Below the pieces are notes generated by a model. It did no database searches, was not told the DNA's origin, and saw only the letters and a program-made list of their open reading frames with translations. This document shows, one piece after another, positions 421 through 15,630 of a DNA stretch of 64,000 nt. Position 1 is the stretch's first letter. Every line of letters starts with the position of its first letter. The stretch is from Paenibacillus sp. IHBB 10380 (GTDB lineage: Bacteria; Bacillota; Bacilli; Paenibacillales; Paenibacillaceae), in assembly GCF_000949425.1 (NCBI RefSeq), contig NZ_CP010976.1:930001-994000 (forward strand). Reading direction: 5' to 3'. A program made the translations under genes and the position numbers.

Positions 421-507
421 ATCGTACCTTGCTAGTATTGGCAGGGTATTTTATGTTCGAGAAGAATGAAGCATTAGACTGGATGCGTCATTAAGCTAAC
501 GGGCAGG
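421..507 (+). repeat. 5'-side cassette repeat, copy 1
   Basis: Positions 421-459 match 2187-2225 at 36 of 39 bases. The repeat folds as a hairpin (CCTTGCTA against TTGGCAGGG). It is followed at 491-507 by TTAAGCTAACGGGCAGG, a motif seen again in this region in both orientations. The order hairpin, then CTAACG-GCAGG, then gene is the same in both copies. The remaining bases up to 930 hold no gene I can support, only an ATTGTTG/CAACAAT inverted repeat near 744-772. Confidence 0.7.
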
Positions 508-929
508 CTTGCTTATATAAATTTATAACCTAAGATTATACCGTAAAATCAGGCTAACTGTAGCGGGTAGGATAGTTAAACTTGCTAAACCCTCAAACGG
601 ATTACATTTGTTATCTACCAAAAAATTAAGTAGAATTTATAATGGATCATTTGGTAAAGTGGATATTTGGTTATTGTCGATTGTCAACAATATAGTCCGA
701 TTAATTTCCTCTTAAATCGCGGTTTTTTTATTTTATCTGAACATATTGTTGTCAAATATTAATGTCAACAATGTGTTCCGTTTATTAAGAGGTGCTAAGA
801 ATATGTACTGATTCTCGTCCTTAGCAATGATTCGGTTGAGTGAGTACGTGTCCTTAACAAGGTAACATGTTTTCCCGTATCTCATATTCTTTCACAATTG
901 AATAGGGTATATAATGCGACACACCATAT

Positions 930-953
930 AAAAACCCTTGGTATACAAGGGTT
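930..953. repeat. AAAAACCCTTG hairpin, left copy
   Basis: AAAAACCCTTG (930-940) and CAAGGGTT (946-953) form a small hairpin. The same 24 bases with two changes occur at 15527-15550, next to the tRNA-Val gene beyond the integrase. They could be related terminators or remnants of attachment sites bounding the accessory region. No direct proof is visible. Confidence 0.4.
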
Positions 954-1029
954 GATGTCAATTTCTAAGATGTTTGTCCGGATTAGTTACTTTTTTATGT
1001 CATGGTTAGTTCAGACAGTGAGGTATGAT

Positions 1030-1059
1030 TTGACGAACAAATGATTCGTTTGTTACAAT
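1030..1059 (+). promoter_or_regulatory. Promoter of catB leader and gene
   Basis: A sigma-A type promoter is seen: -35 TTGACG (1030-1035), an 18-bp spacer and -10 TACAAT (1054-1059). The spacer contains AACAAA and TTTGTT as inverted halves, which could be an operator. The inferred start near 1066 precedes the leader peptide by about 25 bases. Confidence 0.65.
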
Positions 1060-1090
1060 GTCCCCATCAAATAGGAAAAGGATGAGGACG

Positions 1091-1144
1091 ATGGTTCGTC
1101 GTTTGAAACGGTTTAAGAATGTTGCTACTGCATTAAGCTTCTAA
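1091..1144 (+). CDS. Leader peptide of catB attenuator
   Basis: A 17-codon frame, MVRRLKRFKNVATALSF, has a good ribosome binding site (AAAGGATGAGG just upstream) and ends at TAA 1142-1144 inside the left arm of a perfect hairpin that precedes catB. Its end contains Ala-Thr-Ala-Leu-Ser, residues of the type that favour chloramphenicol-dependent stalling. Its start has Arg-x-Lys and Arg-x-Lys clusters like the basic motifs at which macrolides stall ribosomes. The layout matches known cat and erm translational attenuators. The function is inferred from position and sequence. Confidence 0.65.
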   Translation: MVRRLKRFKNVATALSF

Positions 1145-1178
1145 GTAAAAAAAGATTTATATTACTTAGAAGCGAGGG
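1137..1178 (+). promoter_or_regulatory. Translational attenuator hairpin of catB
   Basis: GCTTCTAAGTAA (1137-1148) and TTACTTAGAAGC (1162-1173) are a perfect 12-bp inverted repeat with a 13-base loop. The catB Shine-Dalgarno GAGGG (1174-1178) abuts the right arm, and the leader stop codon lies in the left arm. A ribosome stalled late in the leader would open the stem and free the catB start, as in cat-86 and erm genes. Confidence 0.75.
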
Positions 1179-1184
1179 AAAAGA

Positions 1185-1856
1185 ATGAAACAACATCAGT
1201 TTAACCACTGGTCTGAAATTAAGTATCTAAAGGATATTGTCACCAACCCAATGATTGAAGTAGGGGAATACTCCTACTACTCTGGTTATTACGATAATCA
1301 TGATTTTGAAGATGGGTGCGTTAGATATCTTTGGGGAGATGAAAAATCAAGAAAGTTATTTAACCCCATCGAAGACCATGGTTGGCATTTAGATAAATTG
1401 ATTATAGGAAATTACGTATGCATTGCAAGTGGTGTAATTATTTTAATGGGTGGAAATCATAATCATCATCCTGAATGGATTACCGTGTATCCGTTTGTGG
1501 AGCAGATTGAAACTTCTTACGAACCAAAAGGGGATACAATCATCGAAAGTGATGCCTGGATTGGCATGGATGCAATGATTATGCCCGGTGTGAAAATAGG
1601 TGAAGGTGCCATTGTTGCGGCTGGATCGGTTGTTGTAAAAGGTGTCCCACCATATACGATAGTAGGCGGCAACCCTGCTAAAGAGATAAAGAAACGCTTT
1701 CCAGACAAAGAAATCGAAAAGTTAAAGGAAATGCGTTGGTTCGATTGGGAACGTGAGAAAATTGAACGAGCCAGTCATATCTTCTCAAGTTCTTCTATTA
1801 ATCAATTATATGACTTTTATCAAAGGGAAATAAAACTATATGATCACCTCTTTTAA
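1185..1856 (+). CDS. catB: Type B chloramphenicol/xenobiotic acetyltransferase
   Basis: This 223-residue cytoplasmic enzyme would transfer acetyl from acetyl-CoA to chloramphenicol or a related hydroxylated drug. It has the left-handed beta-helix hexapeptide pattern (IGNYVCIASG, AWIGMDAMIMPGVKIGEG, IVAAGSVVVKG) and the CatB/Vat signature YSYYSGYY near residues 30-36. The catalytic His lies in NHNHHPEW (about residue 94), and IVGGNPAKEIKKRF near 160-175 lies in the CoA-binding region. Length is near the family's usual 210, with a small insertion around residues 50-65. A preceding leader peptide and hairpin suggest drug-inducible translation. It sits alone, flanked by the repeats of this region, as expected for a transferred cassette. 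Whether the substrate is chloramphenicol or a streptogramin cannot be told from sequence alone. Confidence 0.88.
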   Translation: MKQHQFNHWSEIKYLKDIVTNPMIEVGEYSYYSGYYDNHDFEDGCVRYLWGDEKSRKLFNPIEDHGWHLDKLIIGNYVCIASGVIILMGGNHNHHPEWITVYPFVEQIETSYEPKGDTIIESDAWIGMDAMIMPGVKIGEGAIVAAGSVVVKGVPPYTIVGGNPAKEIKKRFPDKEIEKLKEMRWFDWEREKIERASHIFSSSSINQLYDFYQREIKLYDHLF

Positions 1857-2030
1857 TAAAAACAACTCGAATGCACGGATGACACGGAACAAGAACTTGG
1901 AACAAGTGAAGTAATAAAAACAATTTAAGCTATTAATGACTATGCTGATCTTATTCCTCTTTGCACAGAATGGTTGATGTACAGTTTGGCGTTCAATAAG
2001 TGAATTATGGATTAATCTAATCACAAATTA

Positions 2031-2160
2031 TTCAACTAACGGGACACGATAGTTCAAAGGAGAGACCACAGAGGCATAACGCCAATGTGGTCTTTCTTTG
2101 ATTCCTATTAATTCAAACTGAGCAAAGCCTTCTACGTTCGAATCCTTGCTCGCTCAGGAT
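2031..2160 (+). repeat. 3'-side cassette repeat, copy A
   Basis: CTAACGGGACACGATAG (2036-2052) is followed by a hairpin, GAGACCACA (2062-2070) with TGTGGTCTT (2086-2094), loop GAGGCATAACGCCAA, and a T-rich tail, so it can act as a terminator. The copy continues to about 2160 with sequence shared with copy B at 3235-3338. It lies downstream of catB. Confidence 0.75.
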
Positions 2161-2186
2161 TATACTGATTTACATTATACATAAGC

Positions 2187-2254
2187 ATCGTACCTTGCCA
2201 GTTTTGGCAGGGTAGTTTATGTTCGTGATTCAACTAACGTGCAGGTTAGTTGAA
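2187..2254 (+). repeat. 5'-side cassette repeat, copy 2
   Basis: This is the second copy of the 39-base element at 421-459, with stem CCTTGCCA and TGGCAGGG. It runs directly into a perfect 10-bp inverted repeat, TTCAACTAAC (2229-2238) and GTTAGTTGAA (2245-2254), loop GTGCAG. The latter is a palindromic version of the CTAACG motif. It precedes the ATP-grasp gene by about 75 bases. Confidence 0.75.
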
Positions 2255-2331
2255 TAAAAACATTCATTTGTGTTAACCTTAGCTGATTATGGATGAAGAT
2301 TAGATTTAGCTGTAGAAAGGCGTGTGCTTAA

Positions 2332-3156
2332 ATGAAAACACTATTATTTGTCACGGATCTGTATTATCAAGCAAATGGGCGAACTTATTATGAGGAAGAT
2401 TTGTTTCTAACTTCCCAACTTAGAGAGTCATTTGCACTTACTATTTGTCACCCACAAGACATTCACGCTTTTGAGGAAAAGCATGAGCTAATTGTTTTCA
2501 GAAACGCTGGACCCATTGTTAATTTCAAGGACAAATACTTGTCTCTTCGCGAAAGAGTGATCGCAAATAAATATAAAACATATAATTCGTTTAATGGTAA
2601 GGGAGATATGAACGGTAAGGATTACCTCTTAGAGCTTACGAAGGCTGGATATCCCGTCATACCTACAATTGATGACATCGAATTAATTGAGAAGTTACCA
2701 GATGTTGAGACTTATGTTTCTAAACCGAAGGATGGTGCTGACTCAATAGGCTTCGAGCTTATATCTAAAAATGATCTAACATCCAAATTTGATGCAAATG
2801 TACGGAATGTCTTGATTCAGCCTTTAATTGATTTCGACTATGAAGTATCGTTTTATTTTATCGATCATGAGTTTCAATATGCATTGTATGCATCAGACAA
2901 AAAGAAGAGATGGATCTTATCAGAGTTTGTCCCGACTAAGGAAGATTTGAAATTTGCAAATCAGTTTATTGAGTGGAACAACCTTAATTGGGGGATACAA
3001 CGTGTTGATGCATGCCGAACTACACAAGGAGAGCTTCTGTTGGTCGAACTTGAAGATTTAAATCCATATCTCTCTCTATTGGAATTAAAACCAGAACTGC
3101 GTCAAAGGTTCATTGAAAACATGAAAAATTCGTTACAAAAAGCTCTCCAGTCCTAA
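2332..3156 (+). CDS. ATP-grasp domain protein, function unknown
   Basis: The 274-residue protein has an ATP-grasp layout. An N-terminal alpha/beta part ends in VFRNAGPIVNFKDKY. The central strand YVSKPKDGADSIGFELI (about 128-144) carries the ATP-binding Lys and glycine-containing loop. QPLIDFDYEVSFYFID and the late acidic/Asn block ELLLVELEDLNPYLSL (about 233-248) are the usual metal-binding positions. This resembles RimK/glutathione-synthetase-like ligases that join an acid to an amine, but the substrate is unknown. It is a single gene bounded by regional repeats on both sides. The start ATG has only a modest ribosome binding site (GAAAGG, 13 bases upstream). Confidence 0.7.
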   Translation: MKTLLFVTDLYYQANGRTYYEEDLFLTSQLRESFALTICHPQDIHAFEEKHELIVFRNAGPIVNFKDKYLSLRERVIANKYKTYNSFNGKGDMNGKDYLLELTKAGYPVIPTIDDIELIEKLPDVETYVSKPKDGADSIGFELISKNDLTSKFDANVRNVLIQPLIDFDYEVSFYFIDHEFQYALYASDKKKRWILSEFVPTKEDLKFANQFIEWNNLNWGIQRVDACRTTQGELLLVELEDLNPYLSLLELKPELRQRFIENMKNSLQKALQS

Positions 3157-3205
3157 CTCATCGTAGACATCAATACGAACATTGTTAGGCGAATCGATAC
3201 TTTGC

Positions 3206-3338
3206 ATTAAGCTAACGAGGAGCGATTTTGCATAGGAGAGACCACAGAGGCATAACGCCATTGTGGTCTTTCTTTGATTCCTATTAATGCATTACTGAGC
3301 CAAAGCCTTCTACGTTCTAATCCTAGCTCGCTTAGGAT
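3206..3338 (+). repeat. 3'-side cassette repeat, copy B
   Basis: TTAAGCTAACG (3207-3217) leads into GAGACCACA/TGTGGTCTT with the same loop core GAGGCATAACGCCA, followed by about 75 bases nearly identical to those after copy A, up to TTCTACGTTC and a shared hairpin-like tail. It follows the ATP-grasp gene by about 50 bases. The bases from 3340 to 3510 hold no supported gene; a short open frame across the repeat is probably chance. Confidence 0.75.
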
Positions 3339-3510
3339 CGTTAGACTGTCCCACGCAACTCCCGGTAATTTGTTACATGGATACTTACGGTTTCATAGGT
3401 TTTTTATGCTAGTTGATCAGTATACTAAGATCAATGTTTTCACACTAGTCATTCCTTCGGAGTGGTCCTTCTAAAGTAAATATAAAATGTGCTATTTGTA
3501 AGCATAGAAA

Positions 3511-3576
3511 AAGGCGAGAACGATACGCACGGCTGCATAAATGCGGCGTTGAACTGGGCGTAACCATTCTCGCCTT
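3511..3576 (-). terminator. Terminator of His-rich gene
   Basis: AAGGCGAGAA (3511-3520) pairs with TTCTCGCCTT (3567-3576) around a 46-base loop. On the minus strand the stem is followed by a T-run, placing it just after the His-rich gene. Confidence 0.5.
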
Positions 3577-3601
3577 AAATTTTTGTTATACTTTTTTAAT
3601 A

Positions 3602-3802
3602 TTATCGTTGAGGGGTATTTTGCTCTCTCATCATGTGGTGATAGTGATAATGATGGTGATGATGGACGATGTGCTGACCATGTGGGTGACCGGAGGTATG
3701 ATGATAGGGATGATGTGTATGTTCATGGCCGTGATGATAATAGGATTGGGGATCGGGATCCCTTTGTTGAGATCCTTGAACGTTATAGTTTTCTTGACTC
3801 AT
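3602..3802 (-). CDS. Histidine-rich small protein
   Basis: The 66-residue peptide contains about 22 His, mostly in its second half (for example HIVHHHHHYHYHHMM), with Gln, Tyr and Pro between. Such peptides bind Ni, Zn or Co, and some His-rich proteins occur on spores. The function here is not known. A good ribosome binding site (AAAGGAG, 7 bases before ATG at 3802) and a terminator downstream support a real gene. The opposite strand is also open over most of this stretch, giving Asp-rich or Met-rich shadows that are rejected. There is no signal peptide or membrane segment. Confidence 0.65.
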   Translation of the reverse strand: MSQENYNVQGSQQRDPDPQSYYHHGHEHTHHPYHHTSGHPHGQHIVHHHHHYHYHHMMREQNTPQR

Positions 3803-3889
3803 TGATTTTCTCCTTTCGTCTTTTGGTTAATTCATATTATGTTTACGAATGATTAGTGACACTTGACCTAAATAAATTGGGCTACCTAT

Positions 3890-3912
3890 AGTCGCCAATA
3901 GGCGGCTTTTTT
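3890..3912 (+). terminator. Rho-independent terminator
   Basis: AGTCGCC, loop AATA and GGCGGCT form a 7-bp stem followed by a T-run. It ends no obvious plus-strand gene and may be left from a lost cassette. Confidence 0.55.
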
Positions 3913-3959
3913 AATTATTCTGAGTACATGTGATAATAAAGGAAATGGAGGTGCTTGTA

Positions 3960-4064
3960 TTGATCGAACAGAATAATGACGTCAGACTTGCAGAAATACT
4001 AATTGAACACGGGAAAAGCGAATGCCCTAATGGATTTTTCTTTTATCTTCACGACACTGGATAA
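3960..4064 (+). CDS. Small hypothetical protein (34 aa)
   Basis: A TTG start at 3960 sits 8 bases after a strong GGAGG (3947-3951). The peptide includes NDVRLAEILIEHGKSECPNG and ends at TAA 4062-4064. An ATG at 3945 is in frame and would add five residues, but it overlaps the ribosome binding site. I do not recognise the family. The peptide has no membrane segment and could also be the front end of a truncated gene. Confidence 0.4.
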   Translation: MIEQNNDVRLAEILIEHGKSECPNGFFFYLHDTG

Positions 4065-4103
4065 GCTAATTTAAGGAGCGTGTGTTCTTATTGAATAAAA
4101 TGC

Positions 4104-4217
4104 TTGGTGAAGGGCAGGGGATTTCATGACGGTGCCGTAGCGTCGGCGTGTGAGTCTGTTTGCGATTACCTATATGGAAAACCTACTCAACACAAAAAGT
4201 GTGTCTATGGACATTAG
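4104..4217 (+). pseudogene. Orphan coding fragment
   Basis: A frame without a proper start encodes about 37 residues, including GRGFHDGAVASACESVCDY and then LYGKPTQHKKCVYGH before the stop at 4215-4217. The composition is protein-like, but no promoter or ribosome binding site is evident, so it is probably the tail of a broken gene. Family not recognised. From 4218 to 4440 I see no gene. Confidence 0.3.
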
Positions 4218-4440
4218 AATGATACCCATTATTGAGATAAATACATCAATCTACAATCTTTACAGTAATAGCGTACTAAGCCCGTATAAAATGAATGTCG
4301 TTATACATATAACGAATCTATATCAGTAAGATATCAGCACCTATAGAGGGTCGCTTTTCTCATGTTCAGGAAAAGTTTCGTTAGCACAAACACATTAAAT
4401 AGAGAGGGAGTTACACAGTTGGGGCGTAAAAGAGATCCCA

Positions 4441-4479
4441 AACGAGCCCTACTGACTTCGGTTGGTGGGCTTGTTTTTG
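4441..4479 (+). terminator. Rho-independent terminator
   Basis: AACGAGCCC (4441-4449) pairs with GGGCTTGTT (4467-4475), followed by TTTTG. It lies in a gene-poor gap before the YjcZ peptide, another possible leftover of a lost gene. Confidence 0.6.
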
Positions 4480-4617
4480 TTTAGGTAAGGAAAATTTTCC
4501 TGAGCAAATAATTATAACGCGGCATGAAGGCCTGAATCTTCTTTACCATTAAACCCAATCTCCCTTTTAAGTATTTACATATAGTAATCTGTACCCGATT
4601 GGAAAGGAGGAATTACT

Positions 4618-4731
4618 ATGGGAGAAGCTGTTGGAGGATACAGCAGAGGTTGTGGTGTTGGTGGAAGTACAGGGGCAATTTTAGTTCTGTTCATTTTGTT
4701 GGTTATCATTACTAGTGCGTTCTGTTACTAA
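4618..4731 (+). CDS. YjcZ-family sporulation peptide
   Basis: The 37-residue peptide has a Gly-rich N-terminus with YSRGCGVGGS followed by one hydrophobic helix, ILVLFILLVIITSAF. This is the typical plan of YjcZ-type sporulation/spore-coat peptides of Bacillales, usually 30-50 residues. The ribosome binding site AAAGGAGG lies 7 bases before ATG. A decayed second copy with matching upstream sequence follows at 4985-5172. Copy C of the hairpin repeat is downstream. Confidence 0.75.
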   Translation: MGEAVGGYSRGCGVGGSTGAILVLFILLVIITSAFCY

Positions 4732-4767
4732 ACTAATGTGTATTCTTAAATAACCTCATACGATACA

Positions 4768-4835
4768 AGAGACCACAGAGGCATAACGCCAATGTGGTCT
4801 TATTTGATTTTTATTTATATTAAGCTAGCGGAGCT
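4768..4835 (+). repeat. Cassette repeat, copy C
   Basis: GAGACCACA (4769-4777) and TGTGGTCTT (4793-4801) with loop GAGGCATAACGCCAA repeat the hairpin of copies A and B. It is followed by TTAAGCTAGCGG near 4821, a variant of the 5'-side motif. It separates the intact YjcZ gene from its decayed copy. Confidence 0.7.
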
Positions 4836-4859
4836 TTTATCTATTTTTGTTATTCTTGA

Positions 4860-4888
4860 AAAGATCTTGCTAGCAGGGTCTTTTTTAT
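4860..4888 (+). terminator. Rho-independent terminator
   Basis: GATCTTGC and GCAGGGTC pair (one G-U) around TA, followed by TTTTTT. It precedes the decayed YjcZ copy. Confidence 0.5.
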
Positions 4889-4984
4889 TTGGGAATGATA
4901 AATTTCCCTTGCCATTAAACTCAATCTTTATTTTATATTTTCACATATAGTAAGGTGTACTCAATTGAAAATAGAGGAATTACT

Positions 4985-5172
4985 ACGGGAGAAATTGCTG
5001 GAGGTTACGGCAGAGGGCCTCCGCTTCCGTAATCTTGGTTCTGTTCGTCCTGTTGGTAATTATCTCATCCGATTTGAGTACACTAACTCATTACTTGTTC
5101 GTAGCTATTGGTATAATTCTTGGACTCGCAGTCAGCATAGTGTCGCGCTTTCGTAGCCCTAAAAATAACTGA
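4985..5172 (+). pseudogene. Decayed second yjcZ copy
   Basis: Upstream bases (including TTTTCACATATAGTAA and GAGGAATTACTA) match those before the intact gene at 4618, but the start codon is ACG (4985-4987). The first frame reads TGEIAGGYGRG and then stops at 5030-5032. The hydrophobic stretch ILVLFVLLVIIS continues in another frame, which runs to TGA at 5170-5172 with a second hydrophobic segment and the basic tail RFRSPKNN. One start mutation and at least one frameshift therefore separate it from a working gene. Confidence 0.65.
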
Positions 5173-5255
5173 TTAATGACGGGTAGATTAGTGGATAATG
5201 CTCATTAAAATAAACAAGCTGGCTTCAGTGAAGTTTCTAAACTAACAAGTAATCG

Positions 5256-5287
5256 AGGGCACGGGGTTTCCCCTGCGCCCTGCTTTT
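5256..5287 (+). terminator. Strong GC hairpin, terminator-like
   Basis: AGGGCACGGGG (5256-5266) and CCCCTGCGCCCT (5270-5281) flank TTT and are followed by GCTTTTCC. It may end plus-strand transcription from the YjcZ copy and, less well, the minus-strand gene at 5315. Confidence 0.6.
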
Positions 5288-5314
5288 CCTCACTAGTAGA
5301 TGTCTAGTATCTGT

Positions 5315-5554
5315 TTATTCTGTTCGGTGTGTGTCGTTGTCGTTATCTTCAGTAGCTTTAGCCACTTTATTGCCCAACGAAGCGCCTACGATGCCACCTA
5401 CGACGGTTCCAACAGGACCCAAAGCGGAACCCACGACAGCGCCCACAGCACCACCACCCGCGGTTCCTACAGTTTCTCCAGCGCCAAAGCCATCCGTATT
5501 GGTCGTGTTACGGTCAGAACCATCTTTTCGATTGTTGTCATTATTTTTAGTCAT
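5315..5554 (-). CDS. Glycine-zipper domain protein
   Basis: The 79-residue protein has a polar N-terminus (KNNDNNRKDGSDRNTTNTD), a central Gly/Ala-rich hydrophobic stretch with GxxxG spacing (residues about 25-65, e.g. GGGAVGAVVGSALGPVG), and an acidic tail. This is the glycine-zipper 2TM-like pattern found in small membrane-associated or spore proteins. The ribosome binding site GAGGGAGTGAG lies about 6 bases before ATG. No partner is evident; the exact role is unknown. Confidence 0.7.
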   Translation of the reverse strand: MTKNNDNNRKDGSDRNTTNTDGFGAGETVGTAGGGAVGAVVGSALGPVGTVVGGIVGASLGNKVAKATEDNDNDTHRTE

Positions 5555-5684
5555 CTAATCTCACTCCCTCGTTTTATGAATGCTGCTCCTTATGGTGCAG
5601 TCCCAAAATATATCTTGCCCTAACCAGTCTGAAAGGATTCTTAATTATAAATCCACGGGAATGTAGATGCGGATATTATTCACA

Positions 5685-5714
5685 TTGACTTAAGAACATT
5701 AGTTCGTACATAAT
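5685..5714 (+). promoter_or_regulatory. Promoter with LexA-like (SOS) box
   Basis: -35 TTGACT (5685-5690) and -10 CATAAT (5709-5714) are 18 bp apart. Between them AGAACATTAGTTCG (5693-5706) carries GAAC-N4-GTTC, the core of the Bacillus LexA operator (CGAACRNRYGTTYG), with three mismatches to the full consensus. The position between the promoter boxes suits repression. Confidence 0.55.
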
Positions 5715-5746
5715 ACAAACAAACGTTCTTATTAGGAGTGAATAAC

Positions 5747-5947
5747 ATGCCAGTGAAGTATCTTGAGAAAATCATCGAAATCATGTATCAATCAGGAAAA
5801 ATCACGCAGCGGCGTATTGAAGTGAATAGTATCCATAACGGATTGATTAGAGCTACCTGTCTAATGACTGGATCACCACGCACATTCCGTATCGATAACA
5901 TATTGGCATGGCAAGCTCCAAGAACAGCAGTACGGGAGGCAGTCTAA
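5747..5947 (+). CDS. Small WYL-like protein
   Basis: This 66-residue protein resembles a shortened WYL domain (KYLEKIIEIMYQSGKITQRR, then GLIRATCLMTGSPRTFRID and NILAW), a fold that senses ligands or nucleic acids in transcription factors. ATG 5747 lies 8 bases after AGGAG, so the in-frame GTG at 5738, inside that site, is less likely. The stop overlaps the next start as TAATG, implying translational coupling with the HTH gene. A LexA-like box in the promoter suggests SOS control. No catalytic residues are expected. Confidence 0.6.
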   Translation: MPVKYLEKIIEIMYQSGKITQRRIEVNSIHNGLIRATCLMTGSPRTFRIDNILAWQAPRTAVREAV

Positions 5948-6228
5948 TGCTAGCTGATGCGGAGCGTAAGCTATTAAGGGTGCTATATAACTATTGTAGG
6001 CGGCACAATGTAATTCCGACCATGGGAGATTTGGAACGACTGACAGGCAGGAATATGAACAGCGTACGGGAAAGTCTGAACGAGTTGGAGAGTCTGAACT
6101 ACATCTTTTGGGAAGACAAAGCTTCAATGAGTTCAATTCAGATTATAGAAGGATGGGAGAGAGAGAAGAGTAAACCTGCAACTCCTCTGGCATCAAAGGA
6201 CAACACCAATTATTGGGTGGAACATTGA
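5947..6228 (+). CDS. LexA-type winged-helix DNA-binding protein
   Basis: The 93-residue protein has a winged helix over residues about 5-60 (AERKLLRVLYNYCRRHNV, IPTMGDLERLTGRNMNSV, RESLNELESLNYI), resembling the N-terminal domain of LexA. There is no C-terminal protease domain. ATG 5947 overlaps the preceding stop and has GGGAGG 7 bases upstream; an upstream in-frame ATG at 5908 would overlap the previous gene more and lacks such a site. With its neighbour it may form a small SOS-responsive regulatory pair. The target is unknown. Confidence 0.65.
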   Translation: MLADAERKLLRVLYNYCRRHNVIPTMGDLERLTGRNMNSVRESLNELESLNYIFWEDKASMSSIQIIEGWEREKSKPATPLASKDNTNYWVEH

Positions 6229-6237
6229 AAGTCAAAG

Positions 6238-6270
6238 AAGACCACAAGGGATTATCTCCGATGTGGTCTT
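6238..6270 (+). terminator. Terminator related to the GACCACA repeat
   Basis: AAGACCACA (6238-6246) pairs with TGTGGTCTT (6262-6270), followed by GCTTT. The stem is the same as in the regional repeat, but the loop differs (AGGGATTATCTCCGA). Confidence 0.7.
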
Positions 6271-6332
6271 GCTTTAAGTTACCCTCTGACTTCGTTTTGC
6301 AGCTATATGTAATTCTTCCTTAATGTTCATGA

Positions 6333-6872
6333 TTATTTATCCTTAAATTTAGTGCGAACTTCATCAAAGGATTGTTTCATTTGCTCATCTGTTTCCGTTG
6401 AGATAAACCCCCACCCAAATTTATCATCCATTATCAAAGCGATAAATTCTTTGTCTCCGTCACCTCGCATGAGAGTTAAGGTCCCTTTTTTACCAGCACT
6501 TTCATAGTCAGTTGTTTCAACCACTCTCGGATTTAAAAACATCTTATTTTTTTCGGTGACCATCGAAATGGTAAACTCAAGTATTTGTTTAGTGTCAGGG
6601 TGAACTTTTTCATCGACAAACTTCTTCTTCGCATCAAGATCAGTTCCATTCAGGTAAGTATTTACGTATTCAATAGATAATTTCTCCCCAGGTGTTAGTT
6701 CTTTTTCCTTTTCAGGTTCAACGGTTGGCTCGGATTTTTCCACTGGAGTTTGCGTTCCTTCGACTTGGGGAGTGGTTGCAGTCTCATTCGTTAACACGTT
6801 ATTTGAGTTGTTGTTACACCCTGCTAAAAGTACGAACGTTAACATTAGAGAAAATATAATAGCTTTCTTCAA
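6333..6872 (-). CDS. Putative lipoprotein
   Basis: The 179-residue protein starts at TTG 6872 with GGAGGG about 10 bases upstream. A lipoprotein signal peptide (KKAIIFSLMLTFVLLAGC, Cys at about 19) is followed by a Thr/Glu/Pro-rich linker (residues about 25-62) and a compact domain (ELTPGEKLSIEYVNTYLNG to the end) rich in charged residues. It should be anchored on the outer face of the membrane. The domain is not one I can name; NTF2-like folds are possible for such lipoproteins. No operon partner. Confidence 0.7.
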   Translation of the reverse strand: MKKAIIFSLMLTFVLLAGCNNNSNNVLTNETATTPQVEGTQTPVEKSEPTVEPEKEKELTPGEKLSIEYVNTYLNGTDLDAKKKFVDEKVHPDTKQILEFTISMVTEKNKMFLNPRVVETTDYESAGKKGTLTLMRGDGDKEFIALIMDDKFGWGFISTETDEQMKQSFDEVRTKFKDK

Positions 6873-6979
6873 TAAGTGGTACCCTCCTTTATTTTCTAAA
6901 CTATTTTGATATGTCTACCAAAAAAATGTAGGGATAGCTCTTTCAGAACTAAGAAAATATCGCGACGTGAAAAGCATTT

Positions 6980-7039
6980 GTGTGGGTGCCCTACGAGGAT
7001 ATTGAACGCATAGAACGGACTACTCAGATACTGCATTAA
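6980..7039 (+). pseudogene. C-terminal remnant related to gene at 12108
   Basis: The fragment encodes VWVPYEDIERIERTTQILH and a stop. The gene at 12108-12311 ends in a similar TWVPYEDIEHVSMIG, and the DNA is alike over CCTTACGAGGATAT. It is therefore a leftover 3' end of a second copy of that small gene. Confidence 0.5.
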
Positions 7040-7042
7040 ATA

Positions 7043-7103
7043 AGATCACATTGGCGTTATGCCTTTGTGGTCTCTTCATTGCACTATCGTATCCGTTAGC
7101 TCA
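7043..7103 (-). repeat. 3'-side cassette repeat, copy D
   Basis: Read on the minus strand: CTAACGGATACGATAG, then GACCACA, loop with GGCATAACGCCAA, then TGTGATCTT (hairpin 7043-7073). The order and spacing are the same as copy A but inverted, and here the neighbouring genes also read leftward. It lies downstream of the gene at 7230-7583. Confidence 0.7.
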
Positions 7104-7229
7104 GTAACAGTCAGCTGAAGAAAACAGTATCTCCCCTACCTAATTCAGTGAGTAATTGGCGCATTTTCGATTTGCCTCGCACATGCACTTAAATAAGATC
7201 CCTACATTACTTTGTTGGGGATACGAGTA

Positions 7230-7583
7230 CTAATCTTCTGGCATTTGCCAACCCGTTTCCTCATCCCAAATGGCATCCGTATCATCTAGATGCACATGCC
7301 AATCCCCATTAGAAATACTTCTTCTAATATCCGTCAAACAGGTCAACCAATAAAACAGCGCATGCAATGTATCTTCAAAATCATCTGAAAAGGGTAGCTT
7401 TGTTGAACCTGCAAAGATCACTGTTGGTTCATCCTGATCATAGTCATAAACACAAAATGTTTCTCCAATATCCTTCATTTCAAAACCCGCATTGTATTTA
7501 TCAATGATGGCCGTTATCTCTTGCTCCTCACTGTTGGTAAGGTTATAGTTTCTCATACAAGTGTAATAAACAGAAACTCCCAT
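7230..7583 (-). CDS. Conserved hypothetical protein
   Basis: The 117-residue soluble, acidic protein starts MGVSVYYTCMRNYNLTNSEE and contains IGETFCVYDYDQDEPTVIF and FEDTLHALFYWLTCLTDI. I associate this with a widespread small family of unknown function in Bacillales, but I cannot name the family. The ribosome binding site AAAGGAG lies before ATG 7583. It is flanked by regional repeats: copy D downstream and TTAAGCTAACGGGCAG (8041-8057, minus) upstream. It is a lone cassette-like gene. Confidence 0.65.
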   Translation of the reverse strand: MGVSVYYTCMRNYNLTNSEEQEITAIIDKYNAGFEMKDIGETFCVYDYDQDEPTVIFAGSTKLPFSDDFEDTLHALFYWLTCLTDIRRSISNGDWHVHLDDTDAIWDEETGWQMPED

Positions 7584-7639
7584 GCTACATTTCTCCTTTT
7601 TCTCAGTGTATCAGAACTAATGTTCCCATGTACAATTAA

Positions 7640-8040
7640 TCGACGATGTTTACTTTTTTGCTCCTATACTATTCTACTTACATTTCATTGCTAATTAAAG
7701 TATCTTAATTCCTAAGTTTCAGTCAATTACCCTTCTTTACTCTTAATTCTCAGGATATACAAGGGCTGCGCCGTCCTTCGCTTACAGAGAAAACAAAGCC
7801 GTTTGTCTAGAAATATATAAAGATGGTGAAACTTTCTTAAATTTTCAAAAAAGAGGCACTCCATCTACATGATGAAATGCTTCTTCAACTTCTTTTACCA
7901 GCGGAAAGCGCAGTTACTTCCCTCTTGAATAACTTACAAAACCTTGTCTTTCTATAGTTTTAACAATGATCACTAAAGAACCTACGTTCTCATTATTATT
8001 CCATATTAATCCATTGTAAGTAAATATTCATTGCATTAAA
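7640..8040. other. Gap with gene remnants only
   Basis: No intact gene is seen. A minus-strand stretch at about 7850-7930 reads LRFPLVKEVEEAFHHVDGVPLF before a stop, but with an upstream stop and no start codon, so it looks like the tail of a decayed gene. Confidence 0.3.
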
Positions 8041-8111
8041 CTGCCCGTTAGCTTAACAAAGGGCCACCTCTCGGCAACCCTTATGTATTGTGCTATAGTG
8101 TCCCGTTAGCG
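8041..8111 (-). repeat. Cassette repeats, 5'-side motif and copy E
   Basis: On the minus strand, GTTAAGCTAACGGGCAG occupies 8057-8041 and CTAACGGGACACTATAG occupies about 8109-8093. The latter is the 3'-side element of the gene at 8195; the former is the 5'-side element of the gene at 7230. The two sit about 40 bases apart, as at a junction between two cassettes. Confidence 0.7.
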
Positions 8112-8194
8112 TAAGAATATTATCTACCACATCATTAAGCCGTTATTTATATTCAGATGTTTTTTCTGCCCAGCGTCTTATAACTGCTTGATGA

Positions 8195-8404
8195 TTAATT
8201 ATTATTCTGTCTTGCTTTAACCACTCTCGGTATTTTTTCCTCGAAAATGGATAATACATGTGAAATCAATTTTTCGCTCGGGATCATGTTATCTTTCAAA
8301 ACAGCATATATAAGGTTCAAGAAAGTCTTCGCATCTTGTTCAGTTAAACTTTTGATTGATTCCATGGTGCTATCATTCGAGAAATTTTCTTCCTTCGTCT
8401 CCAT
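8195..8404 (-). CDS. Small hypothetical protein
   Basis: This 69-residue protein (METKEENFSNDSTMESIKS at the start) is predicted largely helical and soluble, with SLTEQDAKTFLNLIYAVLKDN and a basic tail. ATG 8404 has GGAGGAA 6-8 bases upstream, so the nine extra residues of the longer frame (to 8431) are unlikely. Family not recognised. It is bounded by a 5'-side motif at 8521-8506 and copy E after the stop. Confidence 0.5.
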   Translation of the reverse strand: METKEENFSNDSTMESIKSLTEQDAKTFLNLIYAVLKDNMIPSEKLISHVLSIFEEKIPRVVKARQNNN

Positions 8405-8505
8405 AACTATTCCTCCATATCTATGTATCATTTATTCTTCCTACACGACATTATATATGAGTCCCTTGGATATAACGCTTTTAGTCGTTGAAAAGTTGCT
8501 TTAAC

Positions 8506-8521
8506 CAGCCCGTTAGCTTAA
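8506..8521 (-). repeat. 5'-side cassette motif
   Basis: On the minus strand this reads TTAAGCTAACGGGCTGG, matching 491-507 except at one base. It lies about 100 bases upstream of the gene at 8404. Confidence 0.65.
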
Positions 8522-8630
8522 TCACTAACATAACTAAACTAACCTTCAAAAACTAGCAATGGACGTCGCTCACATAAATGTAACATCAATAATTCATTTG
8601 GGATATCGTGTAAATGAAGATTTGCAATGC

Positions 8631-14236: not shown

Positions 14237-14255
14237 CTATAAGGTGGCGTATATT

Positions 14256-15446
14256 ATGGCAGTGATCAAAGATAAGAACGTAAAGGTTAATCCGTGGTAT
14301 TTTACTATTGAGGTAGGTAAAGGAAGTGAACGCAAGCGAATCAAGCGTCGTGGATTCAAACGAAAGCAAGATGCTACAGAAGCAGAAAGGGCTCTATTAA
14401 ATGAATTAGGACAAGGCCTTAATCTGGATGCTTCTAAGACACTCTATCGTGACTTTATGCAGGACTTTCTCCGTGATAAGAAAGCCAGAGTCAAGCAGGG
14501 TACGTTAGATACTTATACTGCTTTGATCAAAAATCACATTCTTCCTACGCTGGGTGATCTGCAGCTCGGCAGTATCACGCCCCGGCATATACAGAATCTG
14601 TACAACGATATCATTGAATCTGGACGACTCTCAGGAGAGAACTTGCAGAAGGTCCACACGCTAATTAATGAAAGTTTGAAGAAGGCTGCCGGTTGGGATA
14701 TGATCATTAAGAATCCAGCTGCTGTGGTGGATCGTCCTATTGCCACTCTCAAAGAGATGCTTTACTGGACAGATACAGAATCTCATATGTTTTTGGAGGC
14801 GGCGAAGGTGGATCCGTTATATTGCGCCTTCTTGCTAGCTATAACAGCCGGAATGAGACAGGGGGAAATACTAGGTTTAAGGATTCAAGACAGCGACACA
14901 AAAAATAGGACAATCTCTGTACGTCAAATCCTTAATCACAATGGAAAGGACATAGAGCCAGGGGCAAAGTCTGCATCAGGGATCCGAGCTATTGGAATTG
15001 ATAAGGTTACAGCTGCAGAGCTGGGGGAGTTGGGTCACAGGGTTAAAGAAAGGAAGATGTTGAATAGGGATATATATGAGGATAATGATCTGCTTATTTG
15101 TACTGAGTTAGGAACGCCAGTATCACCGAGAAACTTGAACCGATCATTCTATAGAATTATCAAGAAGATCAATGTAGCTATCACTAAACGTATAGAGAAT
15201 GGTGAGCAGGTGGAGCTTTTGAAGAAGATTCGTTTTCATGATCTCCGACATACACATGTGGTCATGTTGCTGAAGATGAATGAGAATAGCAAGAGGATTG
15301 CGGAGAGAATGGGGTGGTCCAGTATAAAGATGCTCGATCGATATTCACATATTACACCGCATATGCAGCAGGAGACTGCGGAAGCATTCGGAGAGATGTT
15401 TTTTGCGGCACCAAATGGCACCAGTAAGGAAGTTAATTCGCTTTAG
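14256..15446 (+). CDS. Tyrosine-type phage integrase
   Basis: This 396-residue recombinase has an N-terminal arm-binding domain, a SAM-like core-binding domain (about 55-150, MQDFLRDKKARVKQGTLDTY) and a complete catalytic domain. Arg is in TAGMRQGEILGL (about 201), Lys in GAKSASGIR (238), His-x-x-Arg in FHDLRHTH (328/331), Trp in MGWSS (354) and the nucleophile Tyr in MLDRYSHITP (363). ATG 14256 follows AAGGTGG; GTG 14244 overlaps it. The gene's 3' end carries GGCACCA repeats and lies about 110 bases from tRNA-Val, typical of an integrase beside its attachment site. The protein looks functional although the element is eroded. Confidence 0.92.
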   Translation: MAVIKDKNVKVNPWYFTIEVGKGSERKRIKRRGFKRKQDATEAERALLNELGQGLNLDASKTLYRDFMQDFLRDKKARVKQGTLDTYTALIKNHILPTLGDLQLGSITPRHIQNLYNDIIESGRLSGENLQKVHTLINESLKKAAGWDMIIKNPAAVVDRPIATLKEMLYWTDTESHMFLEAAKVDPLYCAFLLAITAGMRQGEILGLRIQDSDTKNRTISVRQILNHNGKDIEPGAKSASGIRAIGIDKVTAAELGELGHRVKERKMLNRDIYEDNDLLICTELGTPVSPRNLNRSFYRIIKKINVAITKRIENGEQVELLKKIRFHDLRHTHVVMLLKMNENSKRIAERMGWSSIKMLDRYSHITPHMQQETAEAFGEMFFAAPNGTSKEVNSL

Positions 15447-15558: not shown

Positions 15559-15630
15559 TGATCTGTACTGGATTCGAACCAGTGACCCCTACCCTGTCAA
15601 GATAGTGCTCTCCCGCTGAGCTAACAGATC
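15559..15630 (-). tRNA. tRNA-Val (GAC)
   Basis: The 72-base gene has a 7-bp acceptor (GATCTGT/ACAGATC), D-arm GCTC-AGCGGGA-GAGC, anticodon arm CTATC-TTGACAG-GGTAG with anticodon GAC, and T-arm ACTGG-TTCGAAT-CCAGT. CCA is not encoded. All arms pair, so it should be functional. It marks the border between the mobile element and core genome. Confidence 0.93.

Follow-up and report, generated by a model that had tools for sequence, protein, structure and literature searches.

In canonical integrons, cassettes keep a gene and its attC site together. Recombination sites of the dif type follow an arm-spacer-arm plan of 11-6/7-11, to which the sites described below are likened. In Firmicutes, a passage of PMC9024848 that reports results of IntegronFinder 2.0 counts one complete integron (Limnochorda pilosa) and a few clusters of attC sites lacking integrases (CALINs). 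A reference title in PMC7399989 describes pdif modules as flanked by inversely oriented sites. Here we analyzed a stretch of 64,000 nucleotides from Paenibacillus sp. IHBB 10380 (C1:930001-994000; hereafter the window), in which single genes are framed by two kinds of short site, termed A and B. We suggest, with a probability of about 0.68, that the window holds part of a gene-cassette array, that A and B are the borders at which its parts are exchanged, and that a Xer-like tyrosine recombinase encoded in some linkers of such arrays likely catalyzes this exchange.

Both sites consist of two arms around a spacer. The consensus of A (from 90 A halves) is TTNARCTAAC-GGGACAC-GATAGTTNAAT and that of B (from 89 B halves) is TTNARCTAAC-GGGCAG-GATAGTTNAAT. 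An A and a B around a hairpin, usually 50–90 bp apart, form a linker on the 3' side of a gene. Sites in the window were called by scanning with position-weight matrices (PWM) for A and B and by searching with R1, a model built from 13 elements of the same genome; R1 is sequence-only because RNAalifold found no pairs in the first element alignment. On one strand of a 200-kb mononucleotide shuffle, the PWM scan with thresholds of 8–16 bits called no B and never more than 1 A.

In array loci amounting to 1.0 Mb, the two strands together had 326 calls for A and 303 for B; with overlapping calls merged, the array strand had 263 A and 298 B. From A to the following B the median distance was 70 bp (158 of 196 cases at 50–90 bp), and from B to the following A it was 754 bp (188 cases). 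Neighbors of like kind also occurred (76 B-B and 50 A-A); these are diverged partners or true lone sites. The arrays are strongly directional, with 298 B sites on the array strand versus 5 on the opposite one, and open reading frames (ORFs) in B-to-A segments of 250–1500 bp ran with the sites in 134 cases and against them in 11 (126 versus 5 if only clear cases are counted). An ORF of at least 60 amino acids (aa) was present in 131 of 136 modules from 25 loci, with a median length of 166 aa and a start at a median of 96 bp after B. A previous sequence-only reading of the window at 421..8521 had noted that motif orientation tracks gene orientation there, and this was confirmed; the random placement of motifs relative to genes, which that reading had named as a check on itself, is not what the strand and ORF counts show. 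We also observed TTCGCGAATA at +14 nt after B in 26 of 270 modules with up to two mismatches (5 in a control interval) and, at one mismatch, in 21 versus 0. It may be an accessory or promoter element.

To locate the borders of exchange, array loci from different genomes were compared all against all, and shared segments of 250–2500 bp with at least 85% identity, lying away from locus ends, were collected. For a border to count, a site had to be present in one or both genomes of the pair, and the same rule was used for random placement. This yielded 105 segments from 46 genome pairs. A segment start coincided with a site in 44 cases, compared with 6.8 for random placement, and a segment end in 63 compared with 7.9, whereas neither border was at a site in 32 segments versus 91.2 at random. 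Segments running from B to A numbered 24 (0.3 expected); there were 3 from B to B, 4 from A to B and 3 from A to A. In the alignments, identity sets in directly after the GGGCAG of B, with the upstream linker differing, and breaks there at the other end. B-to-A modules with different linkers are common to genera at up to 99% identity; for example, the arrays of G053 (genus g1) and G026 (genus g9) share 1153 bp at 99%. Near-identical genes are found in arrays of different genera, and the proposal of the sequence-only reading that a comparison of genomes would reveal exchange with borders at the motifs has been upheld.

Precise insertions and deletions between array loci were also considered (28 candidates, 25 of them listed), but the site-bounded ones rest on a single flank of 81–128 bp. 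We therefore used instead the permuted arrays of two genomes, G053 and G197, which lie at the same place, as indicated by a 7.5-kb common flank at 90% identity. They have 14 array segments of at least 300 bp in common, of which at most 8 are collinear and 0 inverted.

Linkage between genes and linkers was analyzed in a set of 277 distinct linkers. The upstream gene was shared by 43 pairs, of which 4 also had the same linker, 24 had different linkers and 15 were intermediate (the latter 39 pairs represent 13 gene families). Of 38 pairs with the same downstream segment, 7 had the same linker, 18 had different linkers and 13 were intermediate, and 621 pairs had the linker in common and neither flank. 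Identity of the outer arm of A (R'') was 0.87 for the same gene, 0.63 for the same linker and 0.615 for random pairs; for the outer arm of B (R'), it was 0.91 for the same next gene, 0.50 for the same linker and 0.49 for random pairs. Judging from these comparisons, each outer arm (the left one of A, the right one of B) travels with the adjacent gene, whereas the linker keeps its hairpin and the two inner arms, so that genes and linkers are exchanged independently. Position by position, linkage to the gene at A extends up to -1, and linkage to the linker is weaker from +4 and firm from +11; at B, linkage to the flank starts sharply between +9 and +10. According to these profiles, partners change within the A spacer or at its edge, and at B they change where the spacer ends on the right. 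The cassette idea of the sequence-only reading holds with amendments: exchange has its borders at the motifs, but what is exchanged is in many cases a gene by itself (B to A), without its 3' repeat. As canonical cassettes hold gene and attC together, this separate exchange is the main departure from integrons.

Some linkers contain, in place of the hairpin, a gene (int) for a 280-aa Xer-like tyrosine recombinase, giving the order A-int-B. The protein came to notice through integron-integrase scans of eight array genomes. In these genomes no match to the integron integrase profile TIGR02249 exceeded the cutoff, and the array recombinase scored 90.8 bits (cutoff 265). It reached no NCBIfam cutoff (XerC, 195 versus 335; XerA_Arch, 195 versus 220). 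Its nearest solved relatives by sequence were XerC-like 4a8e (119 bits), which we take to be archaeal XerA, and XerD 1a0p (116 bits). Residues 203–267 align to IntI4 241–305 in one stretch, a match of the C-terminal part only and shifted by 38 residues, and the TIGR02249 match breaks at profile position 182. Thus, about 38 residues of IntI4 appear to have no counterpart in the recombinase. R138, K162/K165, H229, H255 and Y264 were invariant in 21 homologs, and R232 nearly so; presumably these residues have the catalytic roles known from the tyrosine recombinase family. It is likely that the recombinase running the array system is unlike that of integrons. The absence of an integron integrase in the sequence-only reading holds in the sense that none passed the cutoff, yet a candidate recombinase does exist outside the window.

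A total of 376 recombinase homologs was detected at E<=1e-40 (the best 120 listed), and 80 int loci of 179 stretches, from Paenibacillus, Cohnella, Brevibacillus and Bacillus sp., were analyzed for sites. Of 78 loci, 46 had an A site ahead of int, and in 42 of these the distance to the start was 82–103 bp. A B site followed int in 45 of 75 loci, 24–73 bp past the stop; both flanked it in 29 of 73. The 45 segments upstream of int fell into 43 clusters, so A-int-B recurs in varied surroundings. A search of 295 Paenibacillaceae genomes, scoring no more than 8 candidates in each, found the recombinase in 44 at E<=1e-60, with up to 3 matches per genome and several copies truncated or carrying stops; in Paenibacillus terrigena, P. 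castaneae and P. guangzhouensis, which belong to the family sample, the gene appears intact. At least 8 elements were present in 35 of the 44 genomes with the recombinase and in 69 of the 251 without it (hand count; Fisher p 8e-11, kinship not corrected). In the genome of the window, the only copy found is frame-broken (C1:1037087-1037755 and 1037697-1037930, in two frames) and lies near a B half and a complete element.

Several additional observations were made on the recombinase and its relatives. A recurring hairpin (type CCCTCCC...GGGAGGGTTTT) lies shortly before the int start codon, e.g. in L195:560-660 (21 loci), and could act by masking the ribosome site or as a transcription terminator. 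No relative of the recombinase turned up in one pattern scan of viral contigs. Plasmids had 24 records of relatives, all below 60% identity and the best at about 52%; on plasmids of Sporosarcina psychrophila (L326) and Peribacillus simplex (L325), such relatives (~52%) lie beside similar sites, and the Sporosarcina plasmid carries single minus-strand genes with A-like sites between them. A second tyrosine recombinase gene, also broken in two frames, is located outside the window at G000:C1:2668815-2669644. Its C-terminal piece fits the integron-integrase profile better (112 bits), and a similar one occurs at G008:C5:315087-315880. R1 had no match in the 20-kb stretch around this second recombinase (L074).

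The sites, linkers and modules at the beginning of the window are as follows (scores in bits, by PWM unless R1 is named).

421..460, plus strand: hairpin stem ahead of a B site, the interior of a linker of a recurring subfamily (from the sequence; a related stem is at C1:2021274)
487..520, plus strand: B site with core TAACGGGCAG at 497, the 5' border of the first gene module (25.0)
507..2040, plus strand: gene module 1 (B to A) with ORF 1185-1856, 223 aa, hexapeptide acetyltransferase (Pfam PF00132)
2027..2057, plus strand: A site, TAACGGGACACGATAGTTCAA at 2037 (43.8; R1 28.5, model 4-42)
2058..2224, plus strand: linker interior with two hairpins, GAGACCACAGAGG...GTGGTCTTTCTTT and ACCTTGCCAG...GGCAGGGTA (from the sequence)
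2225..2256, plus strand: palindromic B site at 2235, TTCAACTAACGTGCAGGTTAGTTGAA (25.8 on the plus and 17.6 on the minus strand)
2245..3212, plus strand: gene module 2 with ORF 2332-3156, 274 aa (no Pfam match; DNA matches of 66-80% in other genomes)
3203..3235, plus strand: degenerate or variant A site at 3213, followed by the GAGACCACAGAGG hairpin (10.0)
7072..7108, minus strand: A-like site at 7098, TAACGGATACGATAGTGCAA, followed by the GAGACCACAAAGG hairpin (R1 19.2; 19.4 by the B matrix, A-like by eye)
7098..8040, minus strand: gene module with ORF 7230-7583, 117 aa (no Pfam match; also present as a module in an array of G040, another genus)
8026..8122, minus strand: complete linker with A 8108, hairpin GGGTTGCCGAGAGGTGGCCC and B 8050 (R1 76.8, E 5.4e-22; 40.5 for A and 42.9 for B)
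8109..8505, minus strand: gene module with ORF 8195-8431, 78 aa (no Pfam match)
8495..8525, minus strand: B site at 8515, TAACGGGCTG, the 5' border of the module with ORF 8195-8431 (14.5)

The motifs quoted in the sequence-only reading are present in the window and denser than chance; CTAACGGG has 5 copies versus 0.69 expected, and 0 of 100 shuffles reached 5. That reading had treated the motifs on the 5' and 3' sides of genes as separate repeats. There are indeed two site types, but A and B are normally halves of one linker, of which 8108/8050 is a complete example. Because A and B are imperfect palindromes, A 2037 and B 2235 also match the opposite strand. No A partner was found upstream of the B site at 497, and the linker interior at 2058..2224 exceeds the usual 50–90 bp known from the distance statistics of array loci. 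The hairpin shared by two genes on their 5' side is real, with copies at 421-460 and 2187-2226, and it is a part of the linker, since a related stem also precedes the B site at C1:2021274. The module at 7098-8040 was the only one of the window that was matched to a module of another array. Its counterpart in G040 is 92% identical across the 532 bp that reach A and 85% identical across 113 bp at the B end, and relative to it the window module carries a 346-bp insertion.

Other features of the window include a hairpin, AGACCACA...TGTGGTCT, that recurs 3' of several genes (2063, 3240, 4770, 6240, 7050), even where no A site is recognizable. Rfam at gathering thresholds detected two tRNAs only in the window. 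A phage-type integrase with an arm-binding domain is encoded at 14244-15446, adjoining a tRNA gene (15559-15630), and is apparently separate from the cassette system.

Our preferred explanation is that the recombinase would bind the arms as on a double-stranded site of the dif type and exchange strands across the spacer. Exchange would occur between A and A and between B and B, because the two spacers differ in length and sequence, and circles of the form [gene-A-linker-B] and [linker-B-gene-A] would be the intermediates. Most array genomes, that of the window included, would now contain remnants left after loss or decay of the recombinase. We favor this double-stranded scheme since each site is a complete arm-spacer-arm unit, both are crossover sites and the recombinase is Xer-like. 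The presence of a gene between A and B in A-int-B is compatible with separate sites. PMC4792948 states that integrases can act on double-stranded sites too.

Several data weigh against this explanation. A detected site was missing at the start of 61 and at the end of 42 of the 105 shared segments. Homologs of the 223-aa gene had no site of at least 10 bits nearby in 21 of 25 loci (L276-L299, L301), and the same was true of the 117-aa gene in 4 of 4 loci (L300, L302-L304); these two genes also live outside arrays. Agreement of A spacers (12 of 439 for the same linker and 1 of 36 for the same gene, versus 125 of 4137 at random) was no better than chance and uninformative on the exact crossover point inside A. 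Among int loci, 32 of 78 had no A and 30 of 75 no B above threshold, several showing variant sites by eye. No excised circle was seen. In addition, the recombinase occurs in 44 of the 295 family genomes and the elements in 231, and therefore another enzyme, e.g. host XerC/XerD, could act on the sites.

The alternative that survives best, although we consider it unlikely, is that the linker is an integron-type attC site that folds as a single strand, with R'' paired to R' and L'' to L', and that has weak strand selection, the bottom strand giving the junction at R' (B) and the top strand that at R'' (A). The order of boxes (arm, spacer of 7, arm, stem, arm, spacer of 6, arm) corresponds to the R''-L''-VTS-L'-R' plan, VTS being the variable terminal structure. 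According to a section of PMC2727003, the junction used by an attC site that has no extrahelical bases depends on the strand delivered: R' for the bottom strand, R'' for the top strand. Those junctions are the two seen here, and since such depolarized sites recombine at either of them depending on the strand, this possibility explains both junctions equally well. Reading the whole linker as attC had been a first guess from the consensus boxes, to which folding and covariation tests gave no backing, and we keep it as a rival only. An attC-type fold was predicted for 11 of 277 elements, equal to the number with swapped R' arms (11 of 277, one draw); these are minimum-energy DNA folds, and such energies alone say nothing against a protein-aided fold. 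Local dyads dominate, with at least four pairs between R'' and L'' in 123 elements and between L' and R' in 74, and the R''-R' positions have no excess of pairing (90 elements). L''-L' coupling was seen at two positions, one with fewer pairs than chance (0.13 versus 0.28 in shuffles), which might reflect an unpaired base; among the remaining single tests a few were borderline, all uncorrected for multiple testing. Two further points argue against attC. The boxes are ~1 kb apart in A-int-B, and the recombinase appears to be without the insertion that PMC8138268, in the part that deals with it, calls essential for integron function.

Much less probable is that A-int-B is an autonomous transposable element with A-hairpin-B as its miniatures, which insert behind genes as terminators while the genes are immobile. 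The varied contexts of A-int-B (the 43 clusters of upstream segments) would fit this possibility, as would linkers of one subfamily behind many unrelated genes (the 621 pairs) and hairpins that look terminator-like by eye. However, B-to-A modules common to genera at up to 99% identity, with different linkers, contradict it as a full account; arrays at one locus are permuted, and the outer arms track the gene and not the element. Finally, ordinary homologous recombination between short repeats, with decay, could make a mosaic without any site-specific enzyme, and linkers of one subfamily are similar over 80–100 bp, 251 of the 295 family genomes yielded no recombinase and several copies of it are truncated or have stops, but we regard this as most improbable because genes and linkers change partners at a short common core between linkers of different interior, none of the 14 segments of G053 and G197 is inverted, and the sites are kept over many genera with the recombinase coded between them.

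In the genome of the window, TAACGGGCAG had 33 copies, concentrated in several regions, versus 8 of a reversed control pattern. A strict full-element pattern matched 25 of the 295 family genomes, with 0 matches of its reversed control in each genome. R1 elements at E<=0.001 were detected in 231 of 295 genomes, representing 16 of 19 genera (at most 13 candidates scored per genome), and in a class-level sample 47 of 398 genomes matched R1 at E<=1e-5; ten other families account for 21 of these 47. This is to be seen against the statement in PMC9024848, as far as its Firmicutes passage goes, that integrons are very rare in that phylum. We also observed that contig C2 of the window genome (~17 kb) has the same matches, contexts and scores as C1:351-356 kb; C2 could be an element that exists in integrated as well as free form, or a duplication made in assembly. 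A search of the PMC open library by concept and site letters gave no account of these arrays among the matches listed.

The cargo of the modules was analyzed with 106 module proteins of 131 ORFs (25 of 67 Pfam families listed). GNAT acetyltransferases (PF00583) were the most common, with 11 members, followed by APH (6) and glyoxalase (4); CPT, DinB, GyrI-like proteins, methyltransferases and Cass2, a named integron-associated protein, had 3 each. PADLOC recognized one family with 3 members. This cargo resembles that of integron cassettes.

How do these arrays compare with known systems? Chromosomal XerA, XerC and XerD include the nearest solved relatives of the recombinase by sequence and are of similar size, but the array recombinase falls under their curated cutoffs, is encoded between A and B and has up to 3 matches per genome. 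The pdif modules of Acinetobacter plasmids likewise consist of genes framed by short Xer-type sites, with an Xer-type exchange proposed in the relevant portion of PMC7399989. In contrast, the sites described here are direct, form long arrays, alternate between two kinds and have the recombinase coded between them, and the inverse orientation was not found (298 B sites versus 5).

The arrays resemble integrons and CALINs in that single genes follow one another in a uniform orientation, each with a site on its 3' side, and in that a conserved border is used for exchange. A tyrosine recombinase, arrays in which no recombinase is detected, and a cargo of GNAT, APH, glyoxalase and Cass2-type proteins are further points in common. 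Other points differ. According to the alignments, the recombinase is Xer-like, under the IntI cutoff and apparently without ~38 residues of IntI4, and its gene lies inside a linker, pointing with the cassettes. Gene and linker are separately exchangeable, with a second junction at A besides that on the R' side; the integron unit of a gene plus its own attC, joined at R' only, is not what the 105 shared segments show (24 B-to-A, 3 B-to-B, 4 A-to-B, 3 A-to-A). A fixed integrase-attI platform was not identified, no separate search for one having been made; B follows int in 45 of 75 loci, as attI might, yet A precedes it in 46 of 78.

Taken together, it is conceivable, at somewhat less than even odds, that Bacillota possess a second, IntI-independent cassette system, in which a Xer-type recombinase, itself carried as one of the exchangeable linkers, shuffles genes independently of 3' linkers at dif-like sites of two alternating kinds. 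As its linker, with two simple sites and a terminal stem, has the parts of attC, such a system could be a double-stranded precursor of integron cassettes or an independent invention of the same logic. If the proposed mechanism is true, a large Gram-positive group would have its own gene-shuffling platform, and the separate exchange of gene and 3' site would make the acquisition of a recombination site by a gene directly testable. The arrays are set apart from both integrons and pdif modules by defining features of these systems that they lack, and their logic is integron-like.

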